This document shows positions 30,066-42,039 of a stretch of 51,473 nucleotides of DNA, one piece after another. Numbering within the stretch: the stretch's first letter is position 1; each line of letters begins with the position of its first letter. Source of the DNA: Cyclobacteriaceae bacterium (GTDB lineage Bacteria > Bacteroidota > Bacteroidia > Cytophagales > Cyclobacteriaceae). The stretch covers positions 1 through 51,473 of the forward strand of contig JAEUUE010000002.1 in NCBI GenBank assembly GCA_016787605.1. The letters run 5' to 3'. The position numbers were made by a program, and so were the translations under genes. The notes beneath the pieces were generated by a model. That model was not told the origin of the DNA and made no database searches. It saw only the letters and a program-made list of their open reading frames with translations.

Positions 30066-32522
30066 ATGCTGAAAAATTACCTGACCACGGCCCTTCGAAG
30101 CCTGTTGCGCAACAAGCTCACCTCGTTCATCAACATCGCCGGCCTGGCCCTGGCCATGACCAGCGCGCTGACAATCTACCTCTTTGTCGCCGACGAACTC
30201 CGCTACGACCGCCACCATGCCAAGGCCGACCGCATTTACCGGGTCACCCGGAACTTCCTGGACAACAGCGGCGTGCCCAGGCTGCACCTCAGCGCCGTGG
30301 CCCCTCCCATCGGGCCGCTGCTGAAGAACGACTACGGCGAGATCGAAGAAATGGCCCGCACGCTGCAGTTCAGCCTCGTGATGGCCATTGAAGAGAACGG
30401 GGAGCGAAAGAAGATGGCGACCGAAAACGACGTGTTTATGGCCGAACCGGGCCTCTTCCGCATCTTCGATATCCCGGTCATCTCCGGCAACCCGGCCACC
30501 GACCTCGAGCGACCCCTGACCGTGATGCTGTCGCAGTCGGCTGCCAAAAAATACTTCAACTCCGAAGACGTCATCGGCAAACACCTGAAAGGCGGCCGGC
30601 AGCTTGACCTCGAAGTGACGGGCGTCTATCCCGACTTCCCGCCTCAATCGCACTGGCATCCCGACTTCCTCATCTCTTTCAGCACTCTTTACGACAGCAC
30701 CATTTATGGTCGCAAAGGTCTCGAGCGGAACTGGGGCAACAACGCCTTTTCCACTTACCTGCTCCTCGACGAGGGCACCGACCCCGGAAAACTGGAGGCC
30801 GCTTTTCCCGGATTTCTCGACAAGCACTTCGGGCCCTTTGCCATCGCCAACTTCGGCGCCCCTCCCACCTTTGTCGCCTCCCGGGTCACCACCCTCTTCC
30901 TGCAGAAGGTGACTGACATTCACCTGAAATCCCACCTGGACGACGAACTGGAAGTCGGCGGCAACATCAATAATGTCTACATGATGGCCATCATCGGGGC
31001 GTTTATCGTGCTCATCGCCTGCTTCAACTTCGTCAACCTGTCGACGGCACGGGCGGCGCGCCGGTCCAAAGAGGTGGGACTCCGCAAGGTAGTCGGCGCG
31101 TTCCGCCGCCAGCTGGTCACCCAATACCTGGGCGAGTCGGCACTCACCTCCCTTCTTGCCCTGCTGCTGTGTATCCCGATGAGCCTTACCGCCCTGCAGT
31201 GGCTGAACTCCTTTACCGGCAAGAACATAGTACTCGATGTCAACTCCGGTCTCCCCATCCTCGTCGGCATGGTCCTGTTTTCTCTGCTGGTGGGACTTCT
31301 GGCGGGCATCTACCCCGCGTTCATTATCTCTTCCTATAAACCGGTACAGGCCCTGAAGGGCAAGATCCAGGCCTCGAGGGGCAACACCGGACTCAGGAAG
31401 GTGTTGGTGGTGACGCAGTTTGCGATTTCCATCGTCCTGATCATCGCCACCCTGATCATCGGCCAGCAGCTCAATTACCTCAACACCCGCGACCTGGGCT
31501 TCGACAAGGAGCGCGTGGTGACGTTACCCTATTACGGAGAACTGGGCGACTCCTACGACGCCTTTTACAACGAGCTTACCAAATCGTCGGCCATCAAGAA
31601 TTTGTCGCGGTCGTCGCGTCTCCCTACCGGCAGGCTGCTGGACTCGCAGGGAAGCCCCAGCATCATGAAGGGCGACAGCCTGACGGCCACGGGCGTGGTG
31701 CTGAAGATGGTCGTGGTTGACCACGAGTTTTTCGATACCTACGGGATCGCCATGGCGGCCGGTCGGCCCTTTTCGAAGGCCATCCCCACCGACGATTCCC
31801 TGGCCTTCATCATTAACGAGACGGCTGCCCGGAAGATCGGCCTGGAGGTGAGCGAGGCCTCCATCAACCAGGACTTCCTCTACGGAGGAGTCAGAGGCAA
31901 ACTGATCGGGATTGTGCGCGACTTTCACTTCGAGTCGCTCCACCAGGAAATTACGCCGATGTCCTTCTTCGTCAACCCGAACTTTTACAACAACCTGACC
32001 GTGAAGATTGCCGGCAACGACTTGCAGGCCGGGCTCGAACACCTGGAAAAGACCTGGCGTTCGTTCCTGCCCATCCGGCCCTTCGACTACCAGTTTACCA
32101 GCGACCGCTATGAGCGGCTGTACGAGTCGGAGAAGAAAGAGGGACAATTGTATTCCATTTTCTCGGGGCTGGCCATCTTCATCGCCTGCCTGGGTTTGTT
32201 CGGCCTGGCGACTTTCAGCACGCTCCAGCGCATCAAGGAGATCGGCATCCGGAAAGTACTGGGCGCTTCCGTGCCTGGGATTCTTGGCCTGCTGTCGCGG
32301 GAGATCATTATCCTCGTGCTGGTCGCCAACCTGCTGGCCTGGCCGGCGGCCTGGTACCTCATGAACCTATGGTTCGACAGTTTTGCCTTTCATGTGACCA
32401 TCAGCCCGCTGACCTTTCTGCTTGCCGCGGTCGCCGCGGTGGGTGTGGCCCTGCTTACGGTGAGTACGCAGACGGTTCGGGCCGCCCTCAGCAACCCGTC
32501 GCACACCTTGCGGTACGAATGA
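30066..32522 (+). CDS. FtsX/MacB-family ABC transporter permease
   Basis: An 818-residue membrane protein with two MacB-type periplasmic domains and two FtsX permease domains. Membrane segments are visible near 20-42, around 300-320 and 340-420 (FIVLIACFNFVNLSTARAARR and VGLRKVVGA, the typical FtsX coupling motif), then a second set at about 690-800 with IGIRKVLGASVPGILGLL. These permeases work with a separate ATPase, which is not next to it, and in Bacteroidota are usually annotated as antimicrobial-peptide or lipoprotein exporters. It stands alone after a terminator and its TGA abuts the TCA (stop) of the convergent dedA gene. Confidence 0.9.
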   Translation: MLKNYLTTALRSLLRNKLTSFINIAGLALAMTSALTIYLFVADELRYDRHHAKADRIYRVTRNFLDNSGVPRLHLSAVAPPIGPLLKNDYGEIEEMARTLQFSLVMAIEENGERKKMATENDVFMAEPGLFRIFDIPVISGNPATDLERPLTVMLSQSAAKKYFNSEDVIGKHLKGGRQLDLEVTGVYPDFPPQSHWHPDFLISFSTLYDSTIYGRKGLERNWGNNAFSTYLLLDEGTDPGKLEAAFPGFLDKHFGPFAIANFGAPPTFVASRVTTLFLQKVTDIHLKSHLDDELEVGGNINNVYMMAIIGAFIVLIACFNFVNLSTARAARRSKEVGLRKVVGAFRRQLVTQYLGESALTSLLALLLCIPMSLTALQWLNSFTGKNIVLDVNSGLPILVGMVLFSLLVGLLAGIYPAFIISSYKPVQALKGKIQASRGNTGLRKVLVVTQFAISIVLIIATLIIGQQLNYLNTRDLGFDKERVVTLPYYGELGDSYDAFYNELTKSSAIKNLSRSSRLPTGRLLDSQGSPSIMKGDSLTATGVVLKMVVVDHEFFDTYGIAMAAGRPFSKAIPTDDSLAFIINETAARKIGLEVSEASINQDFLYGGVRGKLIGIVRDFHFESLHQEITPMSFFVNPNFYNNLTVKIAGNDLQAGLEHLEKTWRSFLPIRPFDYQFTSDRYERLYESEKKEGQLYSIFSGLAIFIACLGLFGLATFSTLQRIKEIGIRKVLGASVPGILGLLSREIIILVLVANLLAWPAAWYLMNLWFDSFAFHVTISPLTFLLAAVAAVGVALLTVSTQTVRAALSNPSHTLRYE

Positions 32523-33098
32523 TCACGGCTTCGCAGAGGGGATATTGAGTCGCTGTTCGGCGATTCGCTTTACCAGGGTACCCACAGCCAGCCCGAACGT
32601 GGCAAACGCGAGGATCACCAGCAGGCCATGCTCCTCGAAGGTCTGCGGGGTAAACTGAAAGTACTGTCCGGCGAGATAACCGGTGGCGCTGACCAGGCTC
32701 GCCCAAAGGAGGCCCGCCGCCACGCTGAAGGCCAGGAAGTGGAAGGGGCGGACTCCCGTCAGACCGATCATGATGGGGAGGACGGCCCGGAGGCCATAGA
32801 GAAACCGGTAGCTGATAAGTACCTGGAAGCGGTGTGTCTCGAAGAAACGCCGGGCCGGATCGAGCCGGAGCTTCAGCTTCGGACGGCGCTCGACGAAGTA
32901 CGTACCGTTGAGTCGGCCGATCAGGTAGTACATCCAATCGCCGAGAAAGGAGCCGAAAAAGCCGAAAAAGACCGTTTCCACGCCCCCAAAGATGCCGCTG
33001 TACACCAAGGATGACGCGACCAGGATGGCCGTCTCTCCTTCGAGAAAGGTGCCAATCGCCAGAGCCAGGTAGCCATACTGGTGGAGAAAATCTTCCAT
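32523..33098 (-). CDS. DedA family membrane protein
   Basis: A 191-residue polytopic protein of the DedA/VTT family (undecaprenyl-phosphate or phospholipid scramblase-like). Family motifs are present: FLEGETAILVASSL near the N-terminus, GSFLGDWMYYLIGR, and the arginine motif ISYRFLYGLRAVLPIMIG. I start at the ATG at 33098 (MEDFLHQYG) and not the TTG at 33107, because the promoter -7 box covers the upstream codons. Single gene, convergent with the permease, with abutting stop codons. Confidence 0.9.
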   Translation of the reverse strand: MEDFLHQYGYLALAIGTFLEGETAILVASSLVYSGIFGGVETVFFGFFGSFLGDWMYYLIGRLNGTYFVERRPKLKLRLDPARRFFETHRFQVLISYRFLYGLRAVLPIMIGLTGVRPFHFLAFSVAAGLLWASLVSATGYLAGQYFQFTPQTFEEHGLLVILAFATFGLAVGTLVKRIAEQRLNIPSAKP

Positions 33099-33104
33099 GT
33101 TCGA

Positions 33105-33112
33105 CAAAGGTA
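33105..33112 (-). promoter_or_regulatory. -7 promoter box of dedA, nearly leaderless
   Basis: The minus strand reads TACCTTTG, a full match to TAnnTTTG, ending 6 bases before the ATG at 33098. Transcription would begin at or next to the start codon. No clear -33 box. Confidence 0.5.
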
Positions 33113-33194
33113 AGGAAGCTGAGCCGACGGTCGCCCGGAACTTTTCTCACAAAAAAACGTTCGATCTCGGTGGAAAACTGATTTGAGAATCATT

Positions 33195-33202
33195 TACTTT
33201 TG
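33195..33202 (+). promoter_or_regulatory. -7 promoter box of the arginine operon
   Basis: TACTTTTG is a full match to TAnnTTTG. The expected start of transcription is near 33208, which gives a leader of about 250 nt before the first operon gene. A TTTG at 33182-33185 is too close to be a normal -33 box. Confidence 0.55.
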
Positions 33203-33259
33203 TGACGACCTTTCGAGGCTTCTAAACAGATGGTGGACCATTAATTTGGAACAACGAAT

Positions 33260-33364
33260 TTGAAAAACCCCTTCACCCTTTCCGCGCACGAGGCACTGCT
33301 TCGCCGCCGGTTTGACTCCCTCCCCCTGGTGATCAGAAGTTTCCGACGTCTTATCCGGATTTGA
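33260..33364 (+). CDS. putative arginine-rich leader peptide of the arg operon
   Basis: A 34-codon frame starting at TTG (MKNPFTLSAHEALL...) and ending in TGA. It contains seven Arg: positions 15, 16, 17 (CGC CGC CGG), 26 (AGA), 29, 30 (CGA CGT) and 33 (CGG), the last three close to the stop. It lies in the leader of an arginine biosynthesis operon, behind a TAnnTTTG box, and is followed directly by mutually exclusive hairpins (33365-33435). There is no in-frame ATG; an in-frame TAA at 33242 bounds it. The first operon gene also uses TTG. It resembles leader peptides of amino-acid attenuators such as those of his and trp operons. Translation is inferred, not shown. Confidence 0.6.
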   Translation: MKNPFTLSAHEALLRRRFDSLPLVIRSFRRLIRI

Positions 33365-33435
33365 TACCGCTTCCCGCGGTACCTGCGGCAGCCTGTGAGA
33401 CGGGCCTGCCGGCTTCATTCATTTTATCATTTTTC
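33365..33435 (+). promoter_or_regulatory. putative attenuator: three alternative hairpins and U-rich tract
   Basis: Hairpin 1:2 is TACCGC (33365-33370) with GCGGTA (33376-33381), perfect 6 bp. Hairpin 2:3 is CCGCGG (33374-33379) with CTGCGG (33383-33388), 6 bp with one G-U pair. Hairpin 3:4 is CGGCAG-CC-TG (33386-33395) with CG-GG-c-CTGCCG (33401-33411), 10 bp with one bulged C, followed by the T-rich 33414-33435. 1:2 and 2:3 exclude each other, as do 2:3 and 3:4. A ribosome stalled on Arg codons 29-33 would cover segment 1, free segment 2 and prevent 3:4, the presumed terminator. Confidence 0.55.
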
Positions 33436-33460
33436 AAATTTTACTCACAACCACTGAGCA

Positions 33461-34204
33461 TTGGAACCTGTAATACGTGTGCGGGAGGCAACCCCCGACG
33501 ACAAGAAATACGCTGAGACCATCACCCAGGAAATGGCCGAATCCGCGAAAGCCCGCGGCACGGGCATTGCCAAGCGGTCGCCCGAATACATCCAAACCAA
33601 AATGGACGAAGGCAAGGCCGTCATCGCCCTTACCGACGACGGCACCTGGGTGGGATTTTGTTACATCGAAGCCTGGGAGCACGGCAAATACGTCGCCAAC
33701 TCCGGCCTCATCGTCTCTCCCCCCTTCCGGAAATCGGGCGTGGCCCGCGAGATCAAGCGCAAGGTTTTCGAACTGTCGCGTAAGAAATACCCTGACGCCA
33801 AAATCTTCGGCCTCACCACGGGGCTGGCCGTCATGAAGATCAACTCGGACCTGGGGTATGAGCCGGTGACCTATTCCGAGCTGACCACGGACGAAGAGTT
33901 CTGGAAGGGCTGCCGGAGCTGCGTGAACTACGACATCCTGATGAGCAAGGAGCGGAAGAACTGCCTCTGCACCGCCATGCTGTTTGACCCGGTCGAAAAA
34001 GCCAAAGCGGCCCCTGCCGTCAACGGCCACACCGCGCATAGTGCCGAAGACCGCCGCCACCGCCGGGTCATGGCTGAAAACCTGACCCTTTTCGACCGCT
34101 GGGTGCACTTCAAGCAATTTGTGCTCCTGAAAAACTGGTGGCGCAAAGAGAACGACAACCCGGAGAAGGGCAAGTCGATCCTCAGCTTCCTGATATTCTG
34201 GTAA
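33461..34204 (+). CDS. GNAT-family acyltransferase, likely N-acylglutamate synthase
   Basis: A 247-residue protein beginning at TTG (an in-frame TGA lies two codons upstream, and no ATG suits). The GNAT domain covers about 5-145 with the acyl-CoA-binding motif R90-KSG-VA (PPFRKSGVAREI). A cluster of four Cys follows (C151, C154, C168, C170), perhaps a metal site, and then a basic, aromatic C-terminal tail. As first gene of a complete arginine operon that otherwise lacks argA or argJ, it is the best candidate for the acylation of glutamate, with acetyl-CoA or, given the ArgF' type, succinyl-CoA. That role is inferred from position. Confidence 0.8.
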   Translation: MEPVIRVREATPDDKKYAETITQEMAESAKARGTGIAKRSPEYIQTKMDEGKAVIALTDDGTWVGFCYIEAWEHGKYVANSGLIVSPPFRKSGVAREIKRKVFELSRKKYPDAKIFGLTTGLAVMKINSDLGYEPVTYSELTTDEEFWKGCRSCVNYDILMSKERKNCLCTAMLFDPVEKAKAAPAVNGHTAHSAEDRRHRRVMAENLTLFDRWVHFKQFVLLKNWWRKENDNPEKGKSILSFLIFW

Positions 34205-34210
34205 TCCGCG

Positions 34211-34233
34211 GCGGTCGCCCCACAGTCGACCGC
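34211..34233 (+). other. 7-bp perfect hairpin between the GNAT gene and argG
   Basis: GCGGTCG (34211-34217) and CGACCGC (34227-34233) form a perfect stem with a 9-nt loop. No T tract follows, so it is not a normal terminator. It may adjust mRNA processing or expression between the first and second gene. Confidence 0.4.
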
Positions 34234-34263
34234 TGATTTACAGTTGAACGTTAATCTCTCTCC

Positions 34264-35454
34264 ATGAAGAAAGTTGTTTTGGCCTTTAGTGGCGGACTCG
34301 ACACCTCCTACTGCGCGGTGTACCTTTCCCGCGACCTGGGCTATGAAGTCCATACCCTGACCGTAAATACCGGCGGCTTTTCGGCCGAGGAAGTCAAGGA
34401 TATCGAAGCCCGGGCGCTCCGGCTGGGCGTCTCCTCACATCGTACGGTCGATGAGACCCGAAACTACTACGACCAGGTGATCCGGTTCCTCATCTTTGGC
34501 AACGTGCTCAAGAACAGCACCTACCCCCTCAGCGTGAGCGCCGAGCGGATGTCACAGGCCCTGGCCGCCGCCCGCTACGCCCGGGAAATCCAGGCCACCG
34601 CGGTCGCCCACGGCAGCACCGGCGCCGGCAACGACCAGGTGCGCTTCGACATGACGTTCCAGATCCTTGCGCCCGGCCTGGAGATCATCACCCCGATCCG
34701 CGACAAGAAGCTAAGCCGGGAGGCGGAGATCGAATACCTGAAATCAAAAGGCATCGAGTTCAATGCCGCCAAGGCAGCCTACTCGATCAACAAAGGACTG
34801 TGGGGCACTTCCGTAGGCGGCCGTGAGACCCTCAACTCCATGGGCATGCTGCCCGAGTCGGCCTGGCCCACGCCCGTCACGAAGACGGAACCGGAAGAAG
34901 TACGCCTGGGATTTGAAAAGGGAGAACTCCGTACCGTCGACGGTAAGTCGTTTGCGCACCCCGTCGAGGCCATCAACTACCTGCAGGCCAAAGCCGGGCC
35001 CTTCGGCATCGGTCGCGACATCCATGTCGGAGATACGATCATCGGCATCAAGGGCCGCGTAGGCTTCGAAGCCGCCGCACCGGTCGTCATCATCAAGGCG
35101 CATCATGCCCTCGAGAAACACGTGCTCACCAAATGGCAGCTTTCATGGAAAGACCAGCTGGCACAATTCTACGGCAACTGGCTGCACGAGGGCCAGTACC
35201 TCGACCCGGTGATGCGTGACATGGAAGCGTTTCTTACGTCTTCGCAGCAGCGGGTAACGGGAACCGTGAGCGTCACCCTGCTGCCCTACCGCTTCCAGAT
35301 TAATGGCATTGAATCTCCCTACGACCTGATGTCGGCGAAATTCGGCAAGTACGGGGAAATGAACCTGGGATGGACAGGCGAGGATGTGAAGGGTTTTACC
35401 AAGATCTTTGGCAACCAGGTGGCGATTTATCACCAGGTGGGGAATGGGGAATGA
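34264..35454 (+). CDS. argG: argininosuccinate synthase
   Basis: A 396-residue enzyme joining citrulline and aspartate with ATP. The PP-loop motif LAFSGGLDTSYC is at the N-terminus. AHGSTGAGNDQVRFD and GIKGRVGFEAAAPVVII fit the family. Length is normal. Second gene of the operon. Its last codons (HQVGNGE and the TGA) are written by the first units of a period-7 repeat array that continues past the stop, so the C-terminal tail is probably repeat-derived. Confidence 0.95.
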   Translation: MKKVVLAFSGGLDTSYCAVYLSRDLGYEVHTLTVNTGGFSAEEVKDIEARALRLGVSSHRTVDETRNYYDQVIRFLIFGNVLKNSTYPLSVSAERMSQALAAARYAREIQATAVAHGSTGAGNDQVRFDMTFQILAPGLEIITPIRDKKLSREAEIEYLKSKGIEFNAAKAAYSINKGLWGTSVGGRETLNSMGMLPESAWPTPVTKTEPEEVRLGFEKGELRTVDGKSFAHPVEAINYLQAKAGPFGIGRDIHVGDTIIGIKGRVGFEAAAPVVIIKAHHALEKHVLTKWQLSWKDQLAQFYGNWLHEGQYLDPVMRDMEAFLTSSQQRVTGTVSVTLLPYRFQINGIESPYDLMSAKFGKYGEMNLGWTGEDVKGFTKIFGNQVAIYHQVGNGE

Positions 35455-35480
35455 AAAATGAAGAATTAAGAATTAACAAT
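35439..35480. repeat. degenerate period-7 array at the 3' end of argG
   Basis: Six heptads: ggggaat, ggggaat, gaaaaat, gaagaat, taagaat, taacaat. All end in AAT. The first two units and part of the third lie within the argG coding sequence and stop. Confidence 0.75.
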
Positions 35481-35506
35481 TGGGACATCCTTACCTGGTA
35501 AACGGA

Positions 35507-35534
35507 GTCATGCTGAGCGCAGTCGAAGCATGAC
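35507..35534. repeat. 28-nt palindromic dispersed repeat, copy 2
   Basis: Arms GTCATGCT and AGCATGAC around a 12-nt centre. It is the exact reverse complement of 14382-14409, in the argG-argC spacer between two period-7 arrays. Confidence 0.75.
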
Positions 35535-35536
35535 GG

Positions 35537-35578
35537 AGTAAGTGGTAAGTAGTAAGTAGTAAAAGGTAAACAGTAAAA
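35537..35578. repeat. degenerate period-7 array before argC
   Basis: Six heptads: agtaagt, ggtaagt, agtaagt, agtaaaa, ggtaaac, agtaaaa (consensus RGTAARN). It ends 5 nt before the argC ATG, where an A-rich context is expected to help translation start in Bacteroidota. Confidence 0.75.
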
Positions 35579-35583
35579 CGATA

Positions 35584-36561
35584 ATGACGGATAAGAAGAT
35601 CAGGGTGGGTGTGGTTGGCGGGGCGGGGTACACGGGGGGAGAAACCGTGCGCGTGTTACTGCGGCATCCCCACGTCGAACTGGTCTTCGTGCAAAGCCGG
35701 AGCCAGCAAGGCAAGCCGGTGGCGGCCATCCACACAGATCTCGCCGGGGAAACTTCGCTCACCTTTACCGAAGACTACACGGCTCCCGTTGACGTCCTTT
35801 ATCTCTGCCTTAGTCATGGGGAGAGCCAATCCTTCGTGGAACAAAACAACTTCCACTCCATTACCCGCCTCATCGACCTGGGCAACGACTTTCGGCTCGG
35901 CGCCACGGCGGCCGGCCGGACATTTGTCTACGGCCTCCCGGAGTATCAGCGCGAAGCCATCCGCAACGCGAAGAACATCGCCAACCCGGGTTGCTTTGCC
36001 ACCACCATCCAGCTCGGGCTCCTTCCGCTGGCCAAAGCCGGCCACCTCACTTCCGTCTGCACCACGGGCATTACCGGCTCCACCGGTGCCGGGCAGAAGC
36101 TCCAGGAGACTTCGCACTTCTCCTGGCGAGCCAACAATGTGGCGGCCTACAAGACCCTCACCCACCAACACCTCGGGGAGATCCATCAGACCCTGAATGC
36201 CCTCCAGCCCGGCTTCGGCCACGTGCATTTCGTACCGTGGCGCGGTGATTTCACCCGGGGCATCTTCGTCACGTCCCTCGTTCCCTGTTCGCTCCCGAAA
36301 GAGAAGATCGTGACGCTCTATAAGGATTTCTACAATTCCCATCCTTTCACCCACGTGATGGATTCGATGGTGGACATCAAGCAAGTGGTGAATACCAACA
36401 AGTGCCTCATCCACCTCGAGGTGGTCAATGGGATGCTGGCCATCCACTCGGTGACCGACAACCTCCTCAAAGGCGCCGCCGGGCAGGCCGTACAAAATAT
36501 GAACCTGATGATGGGACTGGAGGAATCGGCCGGGCTGCACCTTAAGGGAACCGCCTATTAA
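35584..36561 (+). CDS. argC: N-acyl-gamma-glutamyl-phosphate reductase
   Basis: A 325-residue NADPH-dependent reductase of N-acylglutamyl phosphate. The N-terminal nucleotide motif is VVGGAGYTGGETVRVLLRHP. The catalytic Cys is C137 in NPGCFATT. The block FVPWRGDFTRGIFVTS, typical of ArgC, is present. Length is usual for this class. Third gene of the operon. Whether the acyl group is acetyl or succinyl cannot be told from this enzyme. Confidence 0.95.
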   Translation: MTDKKIRVGVVGGAGYTGGETVRVLLRHPHVELVFVQSRSQQGKPVAAIHTDLAGETSLTFTEDYTAPVDVLYLCLSHGESQSFVEQNNFHSITRLIDLGNDFRLGATAAGRTFVYGLPEYQREAIRNAKNIANPGCFATTIQLGLLPLAKAGHLTSVCTTGITGSTGAGQKLQETSHFSWRANNVAAYKTLTHQHLGEIHQTLNALQPGFGHVHFVPWRGDFTRGIFVTSLVPCSLPKEKIVTLYKDFYNSHPFTHVMDSMVDIKQVVNTNKCLIHLEVVNGMLAIHSVTDNLLKGAAGQAVQNMNLMMGLEESAGLHLKGTAY

Positions 36562-36596: not shown

Positions 36597-37718
36597 ATGA
36601 AGCTATTTGACGTCTATCCCCTTTTCAGCATCGAACCGGTTCGGGCGCAGGGATCATGGCTGTGGGACAAGGAGGGCATCCAGTACCTGGACCTGTACGG
36701 CGGACATGCCGTCATCTCCATCGGCCACGGCCATCCGGCCTTTGTGCAGGCACTGACTAACCAGCTCCAGAAGATATCGTTCTATTCCAACAGCGTGGAG
36801 AACAACCTGCAGCGGAAGCTGGCCGACAGACTCGGCGAACTGTCAGGCTACGGCGACTACCAGCTCTTCCTCTGTAATTCGGGCGCCGAAGCCAACGAGA
36901 ACGCGCTGAAGCTTGCCTCCTTTGCCACGGGGCGAAAGAAAATCATCGCCTTCCGCAAGGCGTTTCATGGCCGCACCTCGGGCGCCGTGGCGGCCACCGA
37001 CAACCCGAAGATCGTCGCGCCCTTCAATGCCGGGCACGACATCGTGTTCCTTCCCCTGAATGATGAGCAGGCCCTGAAAGACGCCATGAAGCCGGAAGTG
37101 GCCGCGGTCATCATCGAAGGCATCCAGGGCGTTGGTGGCATTCATGTTCCCGATGATGCCTTTCTTCGTTTCGCCGCAGACGCGTGCCGTCGAAACGGCT
37201 CACTTCTTATCCTCGATGAAATCCAGTCCGGCTATGGACGAACGGGTAAGTTCTTCGCCCACCAGCACGCCGGTATCCGGCCCGACCTGATCACGGTCGC
37301 CAAAGGAATGGGCAATGGTTTTCCTGTGGGCGGCGTGTTGATTCATCCCGACATGAAATCCTGGCACGGCATGCTGGGCACCACGTTTGGCGGAAGCTAC
37401 CTCGCCTGCGCCGCTTCACTGGCTGTACTCGACGTCATGGAAAAGGAATCGCTTATCGCCCACGCCGGCGAGGTGGGAGCAGAGTGGATCGAACGCCTAA
37501 AGAAATTTCCTGGAATTCTCGACGTCAGGGGACGAGGACTGATGATCGGCTTTGACTTGCCGGAAACCCACAAAGAGCTGCGCAAGCGGCTGCTGGCCGT
37601 TCACCACATCTTCACCGGTGAAGCGAAGCCCAACACCATTCGCCTGTTGCCTTCGCTGGCCATCAGCCGGGAAGAAGGCGAAGTATTCTTTCACGCCCTT
37701 TCGAAGGAACTGTCATGA
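36597..37718 (+). CDS. argD: N-acylornithine aminotransferase
   Basis: A 373-residue class III PLP aminotransferase that turns N-acylglutamate semialdehyde into N-acylornithine. Motifs: CNSGAEANENALKLA for cofactor and substrate binding, ILDEIQSGYGRTGKFFAHQ, and the PLP-binding Lys K236 in TVAKGMGNGFPVGG. Length is normal. Its stop overlaps the start of argF' by 4 nt (ATGA), so the two are translationally coupled. Confidence 0.95.
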   Translation: MKLFDVYPLFSIEPVRAQGSWLWDKEGIQYLDLYGGHAVISIGHGHPAFVQALTNQLQKISFYSNSVENNLQRKLADRLGELSGYGDYQLFLCNSGAEANENALKLASFATGRKKIIAFRKAFHGRTSGAVAATDNPKIVAPFNAGHDIVFLPLNDEQALKDAMKPEVAAVIIEGIQGVGGIHVPDDAFLRFAADACRRNGSLLILDEIQSGYGRTGKFFAHQHAGIRPDLITVAKGMGNGFPVGGVLIHPDMKSWHGMLGTTFGGSYLACAASLAVLDVMEKESLIAHAGEVGAEWIERLKKFPGILDVRGRGLMIGFDLPETHKELRKRLLAVHHIFTGEAKPNTIRLLPSLAISREEGEVFFHALSKELS

Positions 37719-38668
37719 AAAAGTTCACCTCCATATCCGACGTTGCCGACCTGGACACCCTCGTGTCCTCTGCCCTGCGCTACAAAGCGAATCCTTTCGC
37801 CGACAAGACTTTGGGCAGCGGAAAGCGAATCGGTTTGCTCTTCTTTAACCCCAGCATGCGTACACGGCTCAGCACGCAGGTGGCGGCCGCCAACCTCGGC
37901 ATGGAAGCCCTTGTATTCAATGTGGGCCAGGAGGGCTGGACGCTGGAATTTGGTGAAGACACGATCATGAACGGCACTACCGTGGAGCACGTGCGGGATG
38001 CTGCACCGATTCTCGGGACCTACTTCGACTTCCTCGGCATCCGTACCTTCCCTTCGCTCAAAAACCGGGAAGAGGACTACAGCGAGCAATACCTCAACCA
38101 GTTTATCCGCTATGCCGGCATCCCCGTGGTTAGCCTGGAAAGCGCGACCCTTCACCCGCTCCAGAGCCTGGCCGACATCATCACGCTGACCGAACTGATG
38201 CCCGCCGGCCGGAAACCGAAAGTCGTGCTCACCTGGGCACCGCACGTCAAGGCTTTGCCGCAGTGCGTGGCCAACAGCTTCGCCCAATGGGTGACCGCCT
38301 GGGGCAAAGCCGAACTGGTGGTGGCCCATCCGCAGGGAATTACCCTCGACAGCGCCTTTACCCGGGGTGCCTCGGTCACCCACCAGCAGGACGAAGCCCT
38401 GGCGGGTGCTGACTTCGTTTACGTCAAGAACTGGAGTTCCTTTTCCGACTATGGAAAAATTCCTGACGCGCACCCGGGGTGGATGCTGACACCGGCTAAA
38501 TTGGAGCGCACCAACCGGGCCAAAGTCATGCACTGCCTCCCCGTCCGGCGCAATGTGGAGTTGTCGTCTGCGGTCCTCGACAGCCCCGCGAGCGTGGTGA
38601 CCCGCCAGGCAGGCAACCGGGTGTGGGCGGCCCAGGCGGTACTGGCGGAATTATTGAAGAACAGTTGA
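37715..38668 (+). CDS. argF': N-acylornithine carbamoyltransferase, probably N-succinyl type
   Basis: A 317-residue transcarbamylase. The carbamoyl-phosphate motif is FFNPSMRTRLSTQ, and the HPLQSLAD and MHCLPVRRN blocks are conserved. The sequence is of the Bacteroidota type closest in memory to Bacteroides fragilis ArgF', which acts on N-succinyl-L-ornithine and not on ornithine. In that enzyme Pro90 decides for succinyl, while the N-acetyl enzyme of Xanthomonas has Glu92; here the equivalent residue is V90 (MNGTTVEH). Published mutants of the N-acetyl enzyme with a small or hydrophobic residue there gain succinyl activity, so succinylornithine is the likely substrate. Confidence 0.9.
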   Translation: MKKFTSISDVADLDTLVSSALRYKANPFADKTLGSGKRIGLLFFNPSMRTRLSTQVAAANLGMEALVFNVGQEGWTLEFGEDTIMNGTTVEHVRDAAPILGTYFDFLGIRTFPSLKNREEDYSEQYLNQFIRYAGIPVVSLESATLHPLQSLADIITLTELMPAGRKPKVVLTWAPHVKALPQCVANSFAQWVTAWGKAELVVAHPQGITLDSAFTRGASVTHQQDEALAGADFVYVKNWSSFSDYGKIPDAHPGWMLTPAKLERTNRAKVMHCLPVRRNVELSSAVLDSPASVVTRQAGNRVWAAQAVLAELLKNS

Positions 38669-38680
38669 TCCTAAGGCGAT

Positions 38681-39469
38681 ATGAACAAACTCTATGTAAC
38701 CAAGATCGGCGGCAACGTGCTGGATGACGATGAGGCGCTGAACCGATTTCTCAAGGACTTCGCCTCCATCCAGGCGCCCAAGATCCTCATTCACGGCGGC
38801 GGGGCGATGGCCACCAAGATTGGCAACCGGCTCGGCATCGAATCCAAGTACGTCAACGGACGTCGCATCACCGACCGCGAGACGCTCGACCTGGTGACCA
38901 TGGTCTACGGCGGGCTGATCAACAAGCAGATCGTAGCCCACCTCCAGCAGTGGGGCTGCAACGCGCTCGGCGTCACCGGGGCCGACGGCAACATGATTAA
39001 AGCGGTGAAACGCCCCGTGAGGGACATCGACTTCGGCTTTGTCGGCGACATCACCCCCGACAGCGTTAACTCGACATTGCTGTACTTCCTCCTCAAGCAA
39101 AATGTGGTGCCCGTCTTCGCGCCGCTCACCTACGCCGACGGCATGATGCTCAACACCAACGCCGATACCATCGCCTCGGTGCTGGCCATCTCGCTCAGCA
39201 AGCACTTTGACGTGCGGCTGATCTTCTGTTTTGAAAAGAAAGGCGTGCTGAGCAACGTGAACGACGAAAATGCCGTCATCCGCAATCTCAATGAAGCGGA
39301 GTACAAGCGCCTGATGAGCGAAGGCGTATTCTCCGACGGCATCCTGCCGAAGCTGGAGAACGCTTTTTCGGCCATCCGGTCGGGCGTGAAGGAAGTGCTG
39401 ATCGGACAGGCTTCTGACCTGATCAAAAACACGCGCGTGGATACGGAAGGAACCCTGATTACCCTCTAG
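38681..39469 (+). CDS. argB: N-acylglutamate kinase
   Basis: A 262-residue amino-acid kinase that phosphorylates N-acylglutamate. The N-terminal KIGGNVLDD and ILIHGGGAMATKIGNRLGIES fit the nucleotide and substrate loops, and LGVTGADGNMIKA the family's middle block. It lacks the N-terminal helix typical of arginine-inhibited ArgB, so feedback inhibition may be absent or act elsewhere; this is inference. It starts 12 nt after argF'. Confidence 0.93.
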   Translation: MNKLYVTKIGGNVLDDDEALNRFLKDFASIQAPKILIHGGGAMATKIGNRLGIESKYVNGRRITDRETLDLVTMVYGGLINKQIVAHLQQWGCNALGVTGADGNMIKAVKRPVRDIDFGFVGDITPDSVNSTLLYFLLKQNVVPVFAPLTYADGMMLNTNADTIASVLAISLSKHFDVRLIFCFEKKGVLSNVNDENAVIRNLNEAEYKRLMSEGVFSDGILPKLENAFSAIRSGVKEVLIGQASDLIKNTRVDTEGTLITL

Positions 39470-39477
39470 CACCCACC

Positions 39478-40551
39478 ATGACGACCGCGGATCAACTTGT
39501 CTCGGATGCCGTTGCCCTCCTTCAGCAACTCATCGCCACGCCGTCATTCAGCCGCGAAGAGGACAAGACCGCGGCCATACTTGAGGCTTTTCTCCAATCC
39601 CACGGCGCGATACCTAAACGCAAGGGAAACAACGTGTGGGCGGTGGGTAAGTCCTATGATCCCTCCAAGCCTACGCTCCTGCTCAACTCCCATCACGACA
39701 CGGTGAAGCCCAACCCCGGCTACACCCGCGACCCTTTCCAGCCGGCCATTGAGGGTGGCAAACTGTTTGGCCTGGGTAGTAATGATGCCGGCGGAGCCGC
39801 CGTTGCGCTGACGGCCGCCTTCCTGCAGCTGCACGACCGACCTGATCTTTCGCATAACCTGGTGCTGGCCATCACCGCCGAGGAAGAGATCTCCGGAGCG
39901 AACGGGATCGAAAGCCTCTGGCACGATCTCCCGAGAATCGACTGCGCCATCGTCGGTGAGCCCACGCAAATGGATGTGGCTGTCTCCGAAAAAGGACTGA
40001 TGGTCCTGGACTGTGTAGCCACCGGGAAGGCTGGCCACGCAGCACGGGAAGAAGGTGAAAACGCCATTTATAAAGCCCTCGCCGACATCGAGTGGTTTCG
40101 CACCTATGTGTTTCCAACAACGTCTTCCACCCTCGGGCCCGTCAAGATGTCGGTGACGGTAATACAGGCCGGGCAGGCGCACAACCAGGTGCCTGCCGAA
40201 TGCCGCTTCACCGTGGATGTGAGAGTCACCGACGCCTATACCTTGGAAGAGGTGCTTTCAACCATCCGTCAGCATGTCGCCTCCCAGGTCACCCCGCGGT
40301 CGCTTCGTATGCGGCCCTCGGGGATTCCCGACAACCACCCGCTGGTGGTCGCCGCCAGGGCAAGGGGCAAGAAATGCTACGGGTCTCCGACTACCTCCGA
40401 CCGCGCCCTGATCCCCGTGCCCTCCGTCAAAATGGGACCCGGCGACTCCGGGAGGTCGCATAGTGCGGATGAGTATATCTTCGTGGAGGAGATTGCTGAT
40501 GGGATCAGGGGGTACCTGGAACTCATCCAGGCGCTGGGAGCTAGGCGCTAG
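39478..40551 (+). CDS. argE: ArgE-type M20 deacylase (N-acylornithine or N-acylcitrulline)
   Basis: A 357-residue di-zinc M20 peptidase. Metal-site residues: H72 or H73 with D74 (LLNSHHDTVKP), D103 (LGSNDAGGA) and the general-base pair E136/E137 (ITAEEEISG). In an operon with an N-acylornithine transcarbamylase it should release the acyl group from N-acylcitrulline to give citrulline for ArgG. No signal peptide. It starts 8 nt after argB. The last residues (ALGARR) are written by a period-7 array that continues beyond the stop. Confidence 0.9.
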   Translation: MTTADQLVSDAVALLQQLIATPSFSREEDKTAAILEAFLQSHGAIPKRKGNNVWAVGKSYDPSKPTLLLNSHHDTVKPNPGYTRDPFQPAIEGGKLFGLGSNDAGGAAVALTAAFLQLHDRPDLSHNLVLAITAEEEISGANGIESLWHDLPRIDCAIVGEPTQMDVAVSEKGLMVLDCVATGKAGHAAREEGENAIYKALADIEWFRTYVFPTTSSTLGPVKMSVTVIQAGQAHNQVPAECRFTVDVRVTDAYTLEEVLSTIRQHVASQVTPRSLRMRPSGIPDNHPLVVAARARGKKCYGSPTTSDRALIPVPSVKMGPGDSGRSHSADEYIFVEEIADGIRGYLELIQALGARR

Positions 40552-40707: not shown

Positions 40708-42039
40708 ATGAAACTGTGGACCAAATCCTCCGACGCCCTTGCCGAAGTCTCCGCGTTTACCACCGGCGACGACCTCACGTGGGACCGTTACCTTGCCCGC
40801 TATGATGTGCTGGGCTCCCTGGCCCACATCCGCATGCTGGCCTCCATCGGCTTGCTCACCCAGGACGAGCACCAGGCGCTCTCCGCGGAATTGAAGAAGA
40901 TCCACGGCGAGATCATGAACGGGAAGTTTGTCCTGGAAGCCGGTGTGGAAGACGTGCACTCACAGGTTGAACTGCTCCTCACCCGTACCCTGGGCGATGC
41001 CGGAAAGAAAATTCACAGCGGCCGTTCGCGCAACGACCAGGTCCTGCTCGATACCAAGTTGTTTCTACGGCAAGAGTTGGAAGAACTCCTGACGGATATC
41101 AAAGCACTGTTCGACCTGCTCCTGGCCCAAAGCGAAAAACACAAGAACGCGCTGCTGCCCGGGTACACCCACCTGCAACTGGCAATGCCCTCGTCGTTCG
41201 GGTTGTGGTTTGCGGCCTACGCCGAAAGCCTTGTTGATGACGTCATCACGTTACAGGCGGCGTATCGGGTTGTGAACAAGAATCCCCTTGGCAGCGGCGC
41301 GGGTTACGGGTCGTCGTTCCCGCTCAACCGCCGGATGACCACGGAACTTCTCGGTTTTGAAGACCTGAACTACAATGTAGTCTACGCCCAGATGGGACGG
41401 GGCAAAACAGAGAAGATCGTGGCCGCTGCCCTGGGCAACGTGGCCGGCACGCTGTCGAAACTGGCCATGGACGCCTGCCTTTACCTCAACCAGAATTTCG
41501 GGTTTATCAGTTTCCCAGATGAGCTGACCACGGGGTCGAGCATCATGCCCCACAAGAAGAACCCCGATGTATTTGAGATCATCCGCGGCCGCTGCAACAC
41601 CATCCAGGCCATCGCGGGCGACATCACCCTGTTGACGGCCAACCTGCCGTCGGGATACCATCGTGAACTGCAGCTCCTCAAGGAGAAACTCTTCCCGGCG
41701 TTCCGCTCGCTACGCGATTGCCTCGCCATGACCGGCCTGATGCTGTCCCGGATGACGGTTAAAGAAAATCTCCTTCAAGAAGAGAAGTACAAATACCTCT
41801 TCAGCGTGGAGGAAGTGAACAAGCTGGTGTTGCAAGGTGTGCCCTTCCGTGATGCCTACCGAAAGGTCGGGCAGGACATTGAGCAGGGTAAATTTTCGCC
41901 CGCGCGCACCGTGGAGCACACCCACGAAGGCAGCATCGGCAACCTGTGCAACGACGACATTGCCCGGATGATGGACAAGGAACTGAAGACCTTTCCCCTT
42001 GCCAAAACACAAGAAGCCCTGAAGCGGCTACTCCACTAG
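40708..42039 (+). CDS. argH: argininosuccinate lyase
   Basis: A 443-residue lyase of the fumarase/aspartase superfamily that splits argininosuccinate into arginine and fumarate. The signature GSSIMPHKKNPD is present with the active-site Ser near 277-278, and HSGRSRNDQV and GYTHLQLAMP are intact. Length is normal for the family. Last biosynthetic gene of the operon. It follows a 156-nt spacer made up largely of repeats, so an internal promoter cannot be ruled out. Confidence 0.96.
   Translation: MKLWTKSSDALAEVSAFTTGDDLTWDRYLARYDVLGSLAHIRMLASIGLLTQDEHQALSAELKKIHGEIMNGKFVLEAGVEDVHSQVELLLTRTLGDAGKKIHSGRSRNDQVLLDTKLFLRQELEELLTDIKALFDLLLAQSEKHKNALLPGYTHLQLAMPSSFGLWFAAYAESLVDDVITLQAAYRVVNKNPLGSGAGYGSSFPLNRRMTTELLGFEDLNYNVVYAQMGRGKTEKIVAAALGNVAGTLSKLAMDACLYLNQNFGFISFPDELTTGSSIMPHKKNPDVFEIIRGRCNTIQAIAGDITLLTANLPSGYHRELQLLKEKLFPAFRSLRDCLAMTGLMLSRMTVKENLLQEEKYKYLFSVEEVNKLVLQGVPFRDAYRKVGQDIEQGKFSPARTVEHTHEGSIGNLCNDDIARMMDKELKTFPLAKTQEALKRLLH

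Follow-up and report, generated by a model that had tools for sequence, protein, structure and literature searches.

The window analysed here is a stretch of 51,473 nucleotides from a Cyclobacteriaceae bacterium, contig C81 of a genome of 3.98 Mb in 191 contigs. The arginine operon that the first-pass annotation of this DNA had placed 3' of a short leader frame is indeed present, on the forward strand. It opens with the gene of a GNAT acetyltransferase (33461..34204; PF00583), followed by argG, encoding argininosuccinate synthase (34264..35454; PF00764, PF20979), argC (35584..36561; PF01118, PF22698), an argD-like class III aminotransferase gene (36597..37718; PF00202), an ornithine or acetylornithine carbamoyltransferase gene (37715..38668; PF02729, PF00185), argB, encoding an amino acid kinase (38681..39472; PF00696), an argE-like gene of the M20 peptidase family (39478..40551; PF01546) and argH, encoding argininosuccinate lyase (40708..42039; PF00206). 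Divergent from the leader, on the minus strand, lies the gene of a VTT-domain membrane protein (32523-33107), presumably DedA-like. The relatives had been named as Chitinophagales; the source organism is instead a member of the Cyclobacteriaceae, a family that we take to belong to the order Cytophagales.

Upstream of the GNAT gene, a frame of 34 codons plus stop (33260..33364, forward strand) runs from a TTG at 33260-33262 to a TGA at 33362-33364, with the translation (M/L)KNPFTLSAHEALLRRRFDSLPLVIRSFRRLIRI. Its start codon is TTG and not ATG, a point on which the annotation was silent. Seven of the 34 codons encode Arg, at positions 15-17, 26, 29, 30 and 33, exactly as reported before. Further upstream on the same strand, TACTTTTG (33195..33202) matches TAnnTTTG, the -7 element motif of Bacteroidota promoters, and a four-codon mini-ORF (ATG GTG GAC CAT TAA, MVDH; 33230..33244) lies 15 nt before the leader TTG. 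Beyond the leader stop codon, folding recovers three forward-strand hairpins where they had been put: 1:2 (UACCGC/GCGGUA; 33365..33381, folded as 33364-33382), just 3' of the stop codon, at -8.4 kcal/mol; 2:3 (33374..33388) at -7.2 kcal/mol; and 3:4, here H2 (33386..33411), with 11 pairs and a GAG triloop, at -16.0 kcal/mol. They are followed by a U-rich, G-poor stretch (33412..33435, forward strand) that is not a canonical U-tract.

The arginine-rich leader frame within the genus

Arginine accounts for 290 of the 5882 codons (4.9%) in 13 ORFs of the window, and seven Arg codons among 34 have a binomial P of only 0.0012, a value from a single sequence that would leave some room for a chance or untranslated frame; conservation, rather than this probability, is the real test. 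The Arg-rich frame is conserved: the GNAT gene was detected in 54 of the 62 genomes of the window's genus, and all 54 keep upstream of it a frame that ends in Arg-Ile-TGA. For further analysis a set of 57 leaders was chosen by this Arg-Ile-TGA pattern, 53 from the genus and four from neighbouring genera, while the leader of the 54th genus genome (L207) was read from its upstream region and stands outside the set. In the 53 scored genus genomes the leader stop codon starts 84-122 nt before the matched part of the GNAT gene, and a TTG start is found at -34 to -45 codons in 50 of them, as well as in 4/4 from neighbouring genera; of the three exceptions, L010 stops at a contig end, L006 has a frame break and L027 is divergent. 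The usual tails in the genus are ...FRRQIRI, ...RRPHRRIRI and ...IRRIRRQIRI before the stop codon. Across the 57 leaders, Arg stands at position -2 in all (57/57, by construction of the selection), at -5 in 55 and at -9 in 42.

The frame also evolves as coding sequence, in line with the codon-like substitution pattern that had been proposed as a check on the leader. With unique sequences aligned without gaps from the stop codon, pN/pS was lowest in the leader frame in all five groups (0.39, 0.51, 0.53, 0.71 and 0.79), whereas the other frames gave 0.86-1.80. Five leaders did not enter this comparison: L010, which runs into a contig end, L006, whose frame breaks one base earlier, and L022, L024 and L027. 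We infer translation of the leader because selection acts in frame. Judged from these comparisons, the 34-codon Arg-rich frame is real and conserved, and a chance or untranslated frame is refuted by its conservation, the in-frame selection, the codon bias and the recurrence in other families, so that its probability is negligible.

With regard to codon usage, AGA at codon 26, CGA CGT at codons 29 and 30 and CGG at codon 33 (33335..33358, forward strand) are the probable control codons, given the conservation of the Arg positions and a bias towards rare codons. In 21 loci of the genus, AGA, AGG and CGA make up 71 of the 88 Arg codons in the leader tails versus 141 of 548 in the GNAT and argG genes of the same loci (p=6e-23). 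Only 4 of the 290 Arg codons in the 13 ORFs of the window are AGA, yet leader codon 26 is one. These counts are for the window's genus; the leaders of family f101, discussed below, mostly use CGG.

A preference for rare codons would be expected of a sensor of decoding speed and not of a peptide signal. It therefore bears on a different reading, in which the nascent peptide would sense free arginine and halt the ribosome on the stop codon, which reverses the logic of stalling. In the fungal arginine attenuator peptide and in TnaC, it is the nascent peptide that arrests the ribosome at the stop codon. Within lineages, C-terminal residues other than Arg are conserved in a manner that would suit such a signal (R-R-Q-I-R-I, S-R-R-P-R-I and ...P-R-A/V before the stop codon). 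Across families, however, little persists beyond Arg and a small or hydrophobic last residue, as judged by eye, and peptide sensing is, in our view, distinctly improbable. Theoretical work, in passages of PMC1183508, indicates that codon choice influences the sensitivity of attenuation-type codon sensors.

Upstream of the leader, TA..TTTG or a near match lies 26-72 nt before the TTG in the relatives where it was found. The mini-ORF is kept in subclades A (10/10), C (21/22) and E (4/4), that is, in 35 of the 36 scored, nearly always with four codons (MPFI, MPFT and variants) and 17-29 nt before the TTG, with a stop codon, be it TAA, TGA or TAG, at the same place. It is found in 5/15 of the window's own subclade B and in 2/4 of subclade D, and its support in the window is weak. 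Re-initiation from the mini-ORF onto the leader TTG is a guess.

Hairpins after the stop codon and the question of a terminator

The three hairpins differ in their conservation, so that the covarying stems proposed by the first-pass annotation are found in part: the arms of H2 are matched, the evidence on 1:2 is mixed, and 2:3 is absent from the relatives displayed. H2 is stronger than in shuffled sequences across the 57 relatives (-11.62 vs -5.58 kcal/mol, p=1.4e-10), and its arms pair far better when matched than when exchanged between species (z=-10, n=53). These arm-matching tests used 53 of the 57 leaders and covered six regions, over all sequences and five subclades. On the comparative evidence, H2 is the only clearly conserved hairpin of the three. 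The 1:2 hairpin does not exceed shuffles across the 57 relatives (-3.66 vs -3.09, p=0.24); its arms fit each other better within a species than between species over all sequences (p=0.015), in subclade A (p=0.03) and in subclade C (p=0.0045), but not in the window's subclade B (p=0.997), and single relatives show clear compensated versions. It is thus best described as weak and lineage-specific, with mixed evidence from these alignments. The 2:3 pairing was not seen, by eye, in any of the relatives displayed; it was seen only in the window.

H2 begins about 14-32 nt after the first base of the leader stop codon. Its loop is NAG closed by C-G in 8/12 of subclade A and 15/22 of subclade C, compared to 0/15 of the window's subclade B, and CCUACGYGG or close variants of it in several other families, where the hairpin again follows the leader stop codon (for example, L039-L041, L054, L057, L060, L068 and L069). 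A 17-base pattern of the CCTACGYGG hairpin occurred in 5 of 13 genomes searched, once in each and always at the arg leader, and the idea that H2 is a general module was rejected on these grounds. In Chitinophagaceae loci such as L226, L231, L244 and L258, a hairpin starts at the leader stop codon itself (UGAUAGG/CCUAUCA, with a compensated version UGACAGG/CCUGUCA). A further hairpin, P4 (GAAGUGC...GCAUUUC), seen by eye 3' of H2 in subclade A, was not retained as a terminator. Rfam covariance models gave no match, at E<=5 in the window (32500-36000) or at E<=1 in 15 related loci, which sets the region apart from the Bacteroid-trp RNA (RF01692), whose name suggests to us an association with trp genes. 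That RNA is a Bacteroidetes candidate listed in passages of PMC2864571.

From the window alone, the locus had been drawn as a classical intrinsic attenuator, in which the three hairpins are mutually exclusive, 3:4 and the U-rich stretch together act as the terminator, and 2:3 forms when the ribosome stalls on the Arg codons. All three hairpins do exist, H2 is strongly conserved and in subclades A and C the two arms of 1:2 match each other, but the wiring between them is not supported: 1:2 does not rise above shuffles and is unmatched in the window's subclade, 2:3 was seen in the window alone, the position of the ribosome has no predicted effect on H2 in the window, and the polarity is wrong for stalls at codons 29-30. 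With a reach of some 12 nt beyond the first base of the codon in the A site, the leading edge of a ribosome would stand at about 33359 for a stall at codon 30, at 33368 for codon 33 and at 33374 for a ribosome that has come to the stop codon. Of the stalls at codons 29-33 that had been held to cover segment 1 (33365-33370), one at codons 29-30 would therefore leave that segment free, and it would be masked by a ribosome at the stop codon or stalled at codon 33. As segment 1 would be covered by a finishing ribosome and not by one stalled at codons 29-30, this wiring would terminate transcription during starvation; on this model of ribosome reach, the polarity is the reverse of that proposed unless the ribosome stalls at codon 33.

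Folding with simulated ribosome positions points the same way. In the window the predicted probability of 3:4 is 0.87-0.92 and hardly altered by where the ribosome stands. Stalling is predicted to dissolve H2 in 8 of the 57 relatives (L012, L019, L028, L029, L031, L102, L116 and L206), compared to 6 of 57 that behave as a switch when leader ends are swapped between species, and over the whole set H2 switching is 0.173 with the species' own leaders vs 0.146 with swapped ones (p=0.52). In L029, L031 and L206, the last codons and the stop codon can pair with the 5' arm of H2, and a test of this leader-end arm (bases -12 to +14 vs +18 to +75) gave p=0.019 over 53 leaders and significance in no subclade. 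An antiterminator formed by the leader end and H2 was rejected on the leader swaps and on this test. No signal of a mutually exclusive antiterminator set by ribosome position was found over the set of 57, and none in the window.

With regard to the terminator itself, the stretch after 3:4 is U-rich, as described before, but GCTTCATTCATTTTATCATTTTTC is late and broken as a U-tract, with 4 U in its first eight bases, and a terminator scan found at 33412..33435 only an alternative stem of 5 pairs (0.4 expected). Of the 57 relatives, 11 have five or more U among the eight bases that follow H2, the window not being one of them, and 4 of 57 have four or more U in the first five bases; typical tails after H2 at arg leaders are UGAAGUGCUUU or UAUCGUGCUUU. 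Terminator-like hairpins were counted in 80 of 203 loci, in which some genomes appear twice, vs 34 in shuffles. Clear terminators stand at the arg leaders of L105 and L007, and in family f57 (L147, L142) a textbook terminator follows a leader that ends in ...RSLRRRPYAAG. In L147 the segment at the stop codon can pair, by eye, with the GGCUUGCC...GGCAGGCC-U6 terminator arm, giving a textbook set. After leader and terminator, L142 and L147 carry a second conserved ORF that ends in HFE.IQSI.DMLNYT. In another locus (L186), the Arg-codon tract of the leader itself (...FARGGRTRARAFSF before the stop codon) contains a GC-rich hairpin that ends in UUUUU, so that a stalled ribosome would cover the hairpin directly. 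To judge from their sequences, f57 and the few genus members with an intrinsic terminator may use the textbook version of attenuation.

The his leader of the same genome (L298, contig C173) serves as a control. It reads MKTKQNIHLHHHHSHHGHGRLLF before its stop codon (1195-1266) and is followed by a terminator of 12 pairs (1289-1317) with a U-rich tail, so that 1195-1317 is, by its sequence features, a textbook his attenuator, unlike the arg leader of this genome. Similar leaders with runs of His codons are found in many genomes of the genus, and 15 of 15 his leaders chosen there have a hairpin of the GGCUUGCC...GGCAGGCC kind that continues into a run of five to nine U, the 15 having been picked for a clear leader from 28 loci scanned. 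Attenuation by leaders is thus in use in this genus. Given the polarity, the insensitivity of H2 to the ribosome, the leader swaps and the poor U-tract, we hold the classical intrinsic attenuator to be an unlikely account of the window's arg leader.

Another reading follows the orf34 leader of Salmonella speF, and would have pausing at the Arg codons alter an RNA structure that decides mRNA decay or translation and not termination. Passages of PMC6386406 describe ribosome pausing at two consecutive Arg codons of orf34 as the means of sensing arginine, and H2 is conserved without a terminator tail in most of the relatives scored. Conversely, an informal look revealed no conserved structure hiding the GNAT start, and predicted switching between leader end and H2 is limited to 8/57; we rate this reading as quite unlikely. 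The two systems also differ in that orf34, a DUF2618 peptide according to the same passages, controls ornithine decarboxylase, with an output that involves Rho and RNase G (PMC6386406). The genes 3' of the window's leader are those of arginine biosynthesis, and by eye the leader is without the HIRR..HIMM core that would place it with orf34; no sequence or operon relation between the two is claimed.

Spread of the leader and of argR upstream of the GNAT gene

The leader was followed beyond the genus by an Arg-tail criterion, which asked for an ORF with a start codon and three or more Arg among the final 12 codons, no more than 300 nt upstream of the gene. By this criterion, 56 of the 57 arg upstream regions of the window's genus and near genera pass, compared to 1 of 26 his-operon upstream regions of related genomes. 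Of 79 loci from other orders of the class, 50 pass (49 of 78 genomes, one locus occurring twice and a weak hit, G437, having been left out), vs 8.7 loci expected by shuffling, and some of the passes must accordingly be down to chance. The other 29 of the 78 genomes fail the three-Arg criterion: six have argR, a few have two-Arg tails, and nothing clear is seen in the remainder. Of 80 named loci, 70 pass with the distance set at 330 nt, a count that stands without a shuffle comparison; they include Chitinophaga (...LSRRPRI), Algoriphagus (...RRYRFFFRV), Cecembia and Sediminibacterium, and in Niabella drilacis (L274) no ORF within 330 nt upstream of the gene passed. A preliminary contrast over 140 sequences gave 3.65 vs 1.61 in shuffled sequences and 1.97 on the reverse strand; it is modest because the maximum was taken, and the counts by a fixed criterion are therefore preferred.

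Outside the class, the gene was found in 37 genomes, 27 of which were examined: 12 of the 20 in family f101 and 15 others. All 12 of the f101 genomes have a leader, which in ten of them is of 21 codons, begins with MQ and ends in PRRR. Counted from the stop codon's first base, their H2 begins at +14 to +16 in 8 of the 12, with stems altered on both arms, by eye, and energies that differ from shuffles (p=0.0005). The 15 genomes outside f101 are mostly without a leader, with a clear one only in L324 and a two-Arg one in L329. By genome comparison, an Arg-tailed, translated frame before GNAT-argG is thereby established throughout the genus, and further afield in many families of the class and a single family beyond the class. 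The arg leader locus also occurs in records with the titles Beijerinckiaceae and Ignavibacteria (L240 and L261), possibly through mis-binned contigs or by transfer. In L187 and L193, two short Arg-rich ORFs stand in tandem upstream of the GNAT gene (in L187, ...LRRRRPMRRR and then ...SVRRFFPRP).

ArgR is the textbook case of a repressor by which arginine controls the arg genes. Its profile (PF01316) found no match in the window's genome (G000, 98.87% complete), where the leader occupies that place instead; in the class, 12 of 197 genomes match at E<=1e-3 (10 of them over the cut-off) and 185 are without a match. Seven loci (L168, L196, L198, L200, L201, L203 and L205), five from f52, one from f75 and one from f86, have a complete argR-like frame immediately before the GNAT gene; Pfam was used to check its identity in three of the seven. 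By the criterion, six of these loci have no Arg-rich ORF, and the short one in L205 is regarded as chance. On this pattern of occurrence, leader and argR seem to be alternative occupants of one site upstream of the GNAT gene, and several other genomes have neither in view.

A probable ribosome-based arginine sensor and its proposed output

Arginine shortage is very probably sensed by stalling of the ribosome on the leader, which would switch on the pathway, as the comparative evidence suggests. When charged tRNA-Arg is scarce, the ribosome would stall on the Arg codons near the stop codon and the operon would be transcribed; when arginine is plentiful, the ribosome would finish the leader and leave, and transcription into the operon would be cut short. 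In the window's genus the output may well be something other than a 1-2-3-4 intrinsic terminator switch, which we propose with less confidence: a stalled ribosome could shield the RNA after the stop codon, or an RNA polymerase close ahead, from a termination factor. That factor would most likely be Rho, acting where the RNA between H2 and the first gene is poor in G. Factor-dependent termination is favoured because the control codons adjoin the stop codon, H2 is mostly tailless and the interval is low in G. From the size of the ribosome's footprint, the H2 of f101, at +14 to +16, begins just past a ribosome at the stop codon.

Several observations speak against parts of this reading. A low G content is also common before genes, and intrinsic termination may yet operate, given the window's hairpin of -16 kcal/mol with its U-rich stretch and the excess of terminator-like hairpins over shuffles. 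Added to these are the 8 of 57 relatives in which stalling is predicted to dissolve H2, the p=0.019 of one arm test, and the 29 of 78 genomes of other orders that fail the three-Arg criterion. The ratio of C to G after H2 is 3.1 in f101, 2.1 in g24, 1.7 in the genus set and 1.10 in the Chitinophagaceae set. Over the whole interval from leader to gene it is 1.10 for his, terminator included, vs 1.26 for the arg loci of the genus; like for like, the excess of C is thus small, and composition alone is weak support. Weighing all this, we consider it likely that 33260-33364 is an arginine-sensing leader peptide gene ('argL'), and favour the view that a stalled ribosome beside its stop codon blocks premature, probably Rho-dependent, termination. 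A wider version, in which an old arginine sensor of the phylum, ending in slow Arg codons, replaces ArgR in many Bacteroidota lineages, the stalled ribosome by the stop codon and before the position-conserved H2 blocks factor-dependent termination without any intrinsic terminator, and the TTG is fed by re-initiation from the tetrapeptide mini-ORF in part of the Cyclobacteriaceae, is put forward tentatively, as a possibility that we would sooner doubt than accept. Our reading of the comparisons is that the sensor would be conserved while the output drifts.

The arg leader shares with the his, trp and leu attenuators a short leader ORF, with codons for the product amino acid near its stop codon, before the matching operon; it differs from them in that the control amino acid is arginine and that no general antiterminator/terminator pair was found in the window's genus. 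In the tryptophanase operon of E. coli, a ribosome stalled at the stop codon of tnaC blocks Rho. The likeness to tnaC, as far as the accounts drawn on here extend, is that a stalled leader ribosome controls transcription of the operon; TnaC senses free Trp via its peptide, whereas the arg leader would sense codons and tRNA charging, with a putative link to Rho. The first-pass annotation knew of no described Arg attenuator of this type in Bacteroidota, and none was found in a literature search that had supplements and most subscription papers outside its scope. Passages of PMC9723704 speak of 'strong clues' that amino-acid operons of Flavobacterium psychrophilum are preceded by attenuators of the leader-peptide type, and the supplements of that paper may list an arg leader. 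In passages of PMC8632094 a cysS leader with Cys codons is described, and no arginine leader is seen in them.

Of the original proposal, then, a conserved leader peptide whose Arg codons, biased towards rare ones, sense the supply of arginine is supported, and the 1-2-3-4 wiring of the hairpins is not. The sensor part, leader peptide and arginine sensing by stalling, is well supported by the sequence comparisons, and the hairpin scheme as drawn is not supported. These results point to translation as the means by which many lineages of the class sense arginine, with argR and the leader standing in for each other at the same spot. Moreover, they suggest that the same genus uses a textbook terminator attenuator for histidine and a different output for arginine. 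The his and arg leaders of one genus thereby make the mechanism of the arginine output directly testable by comparison in one host.
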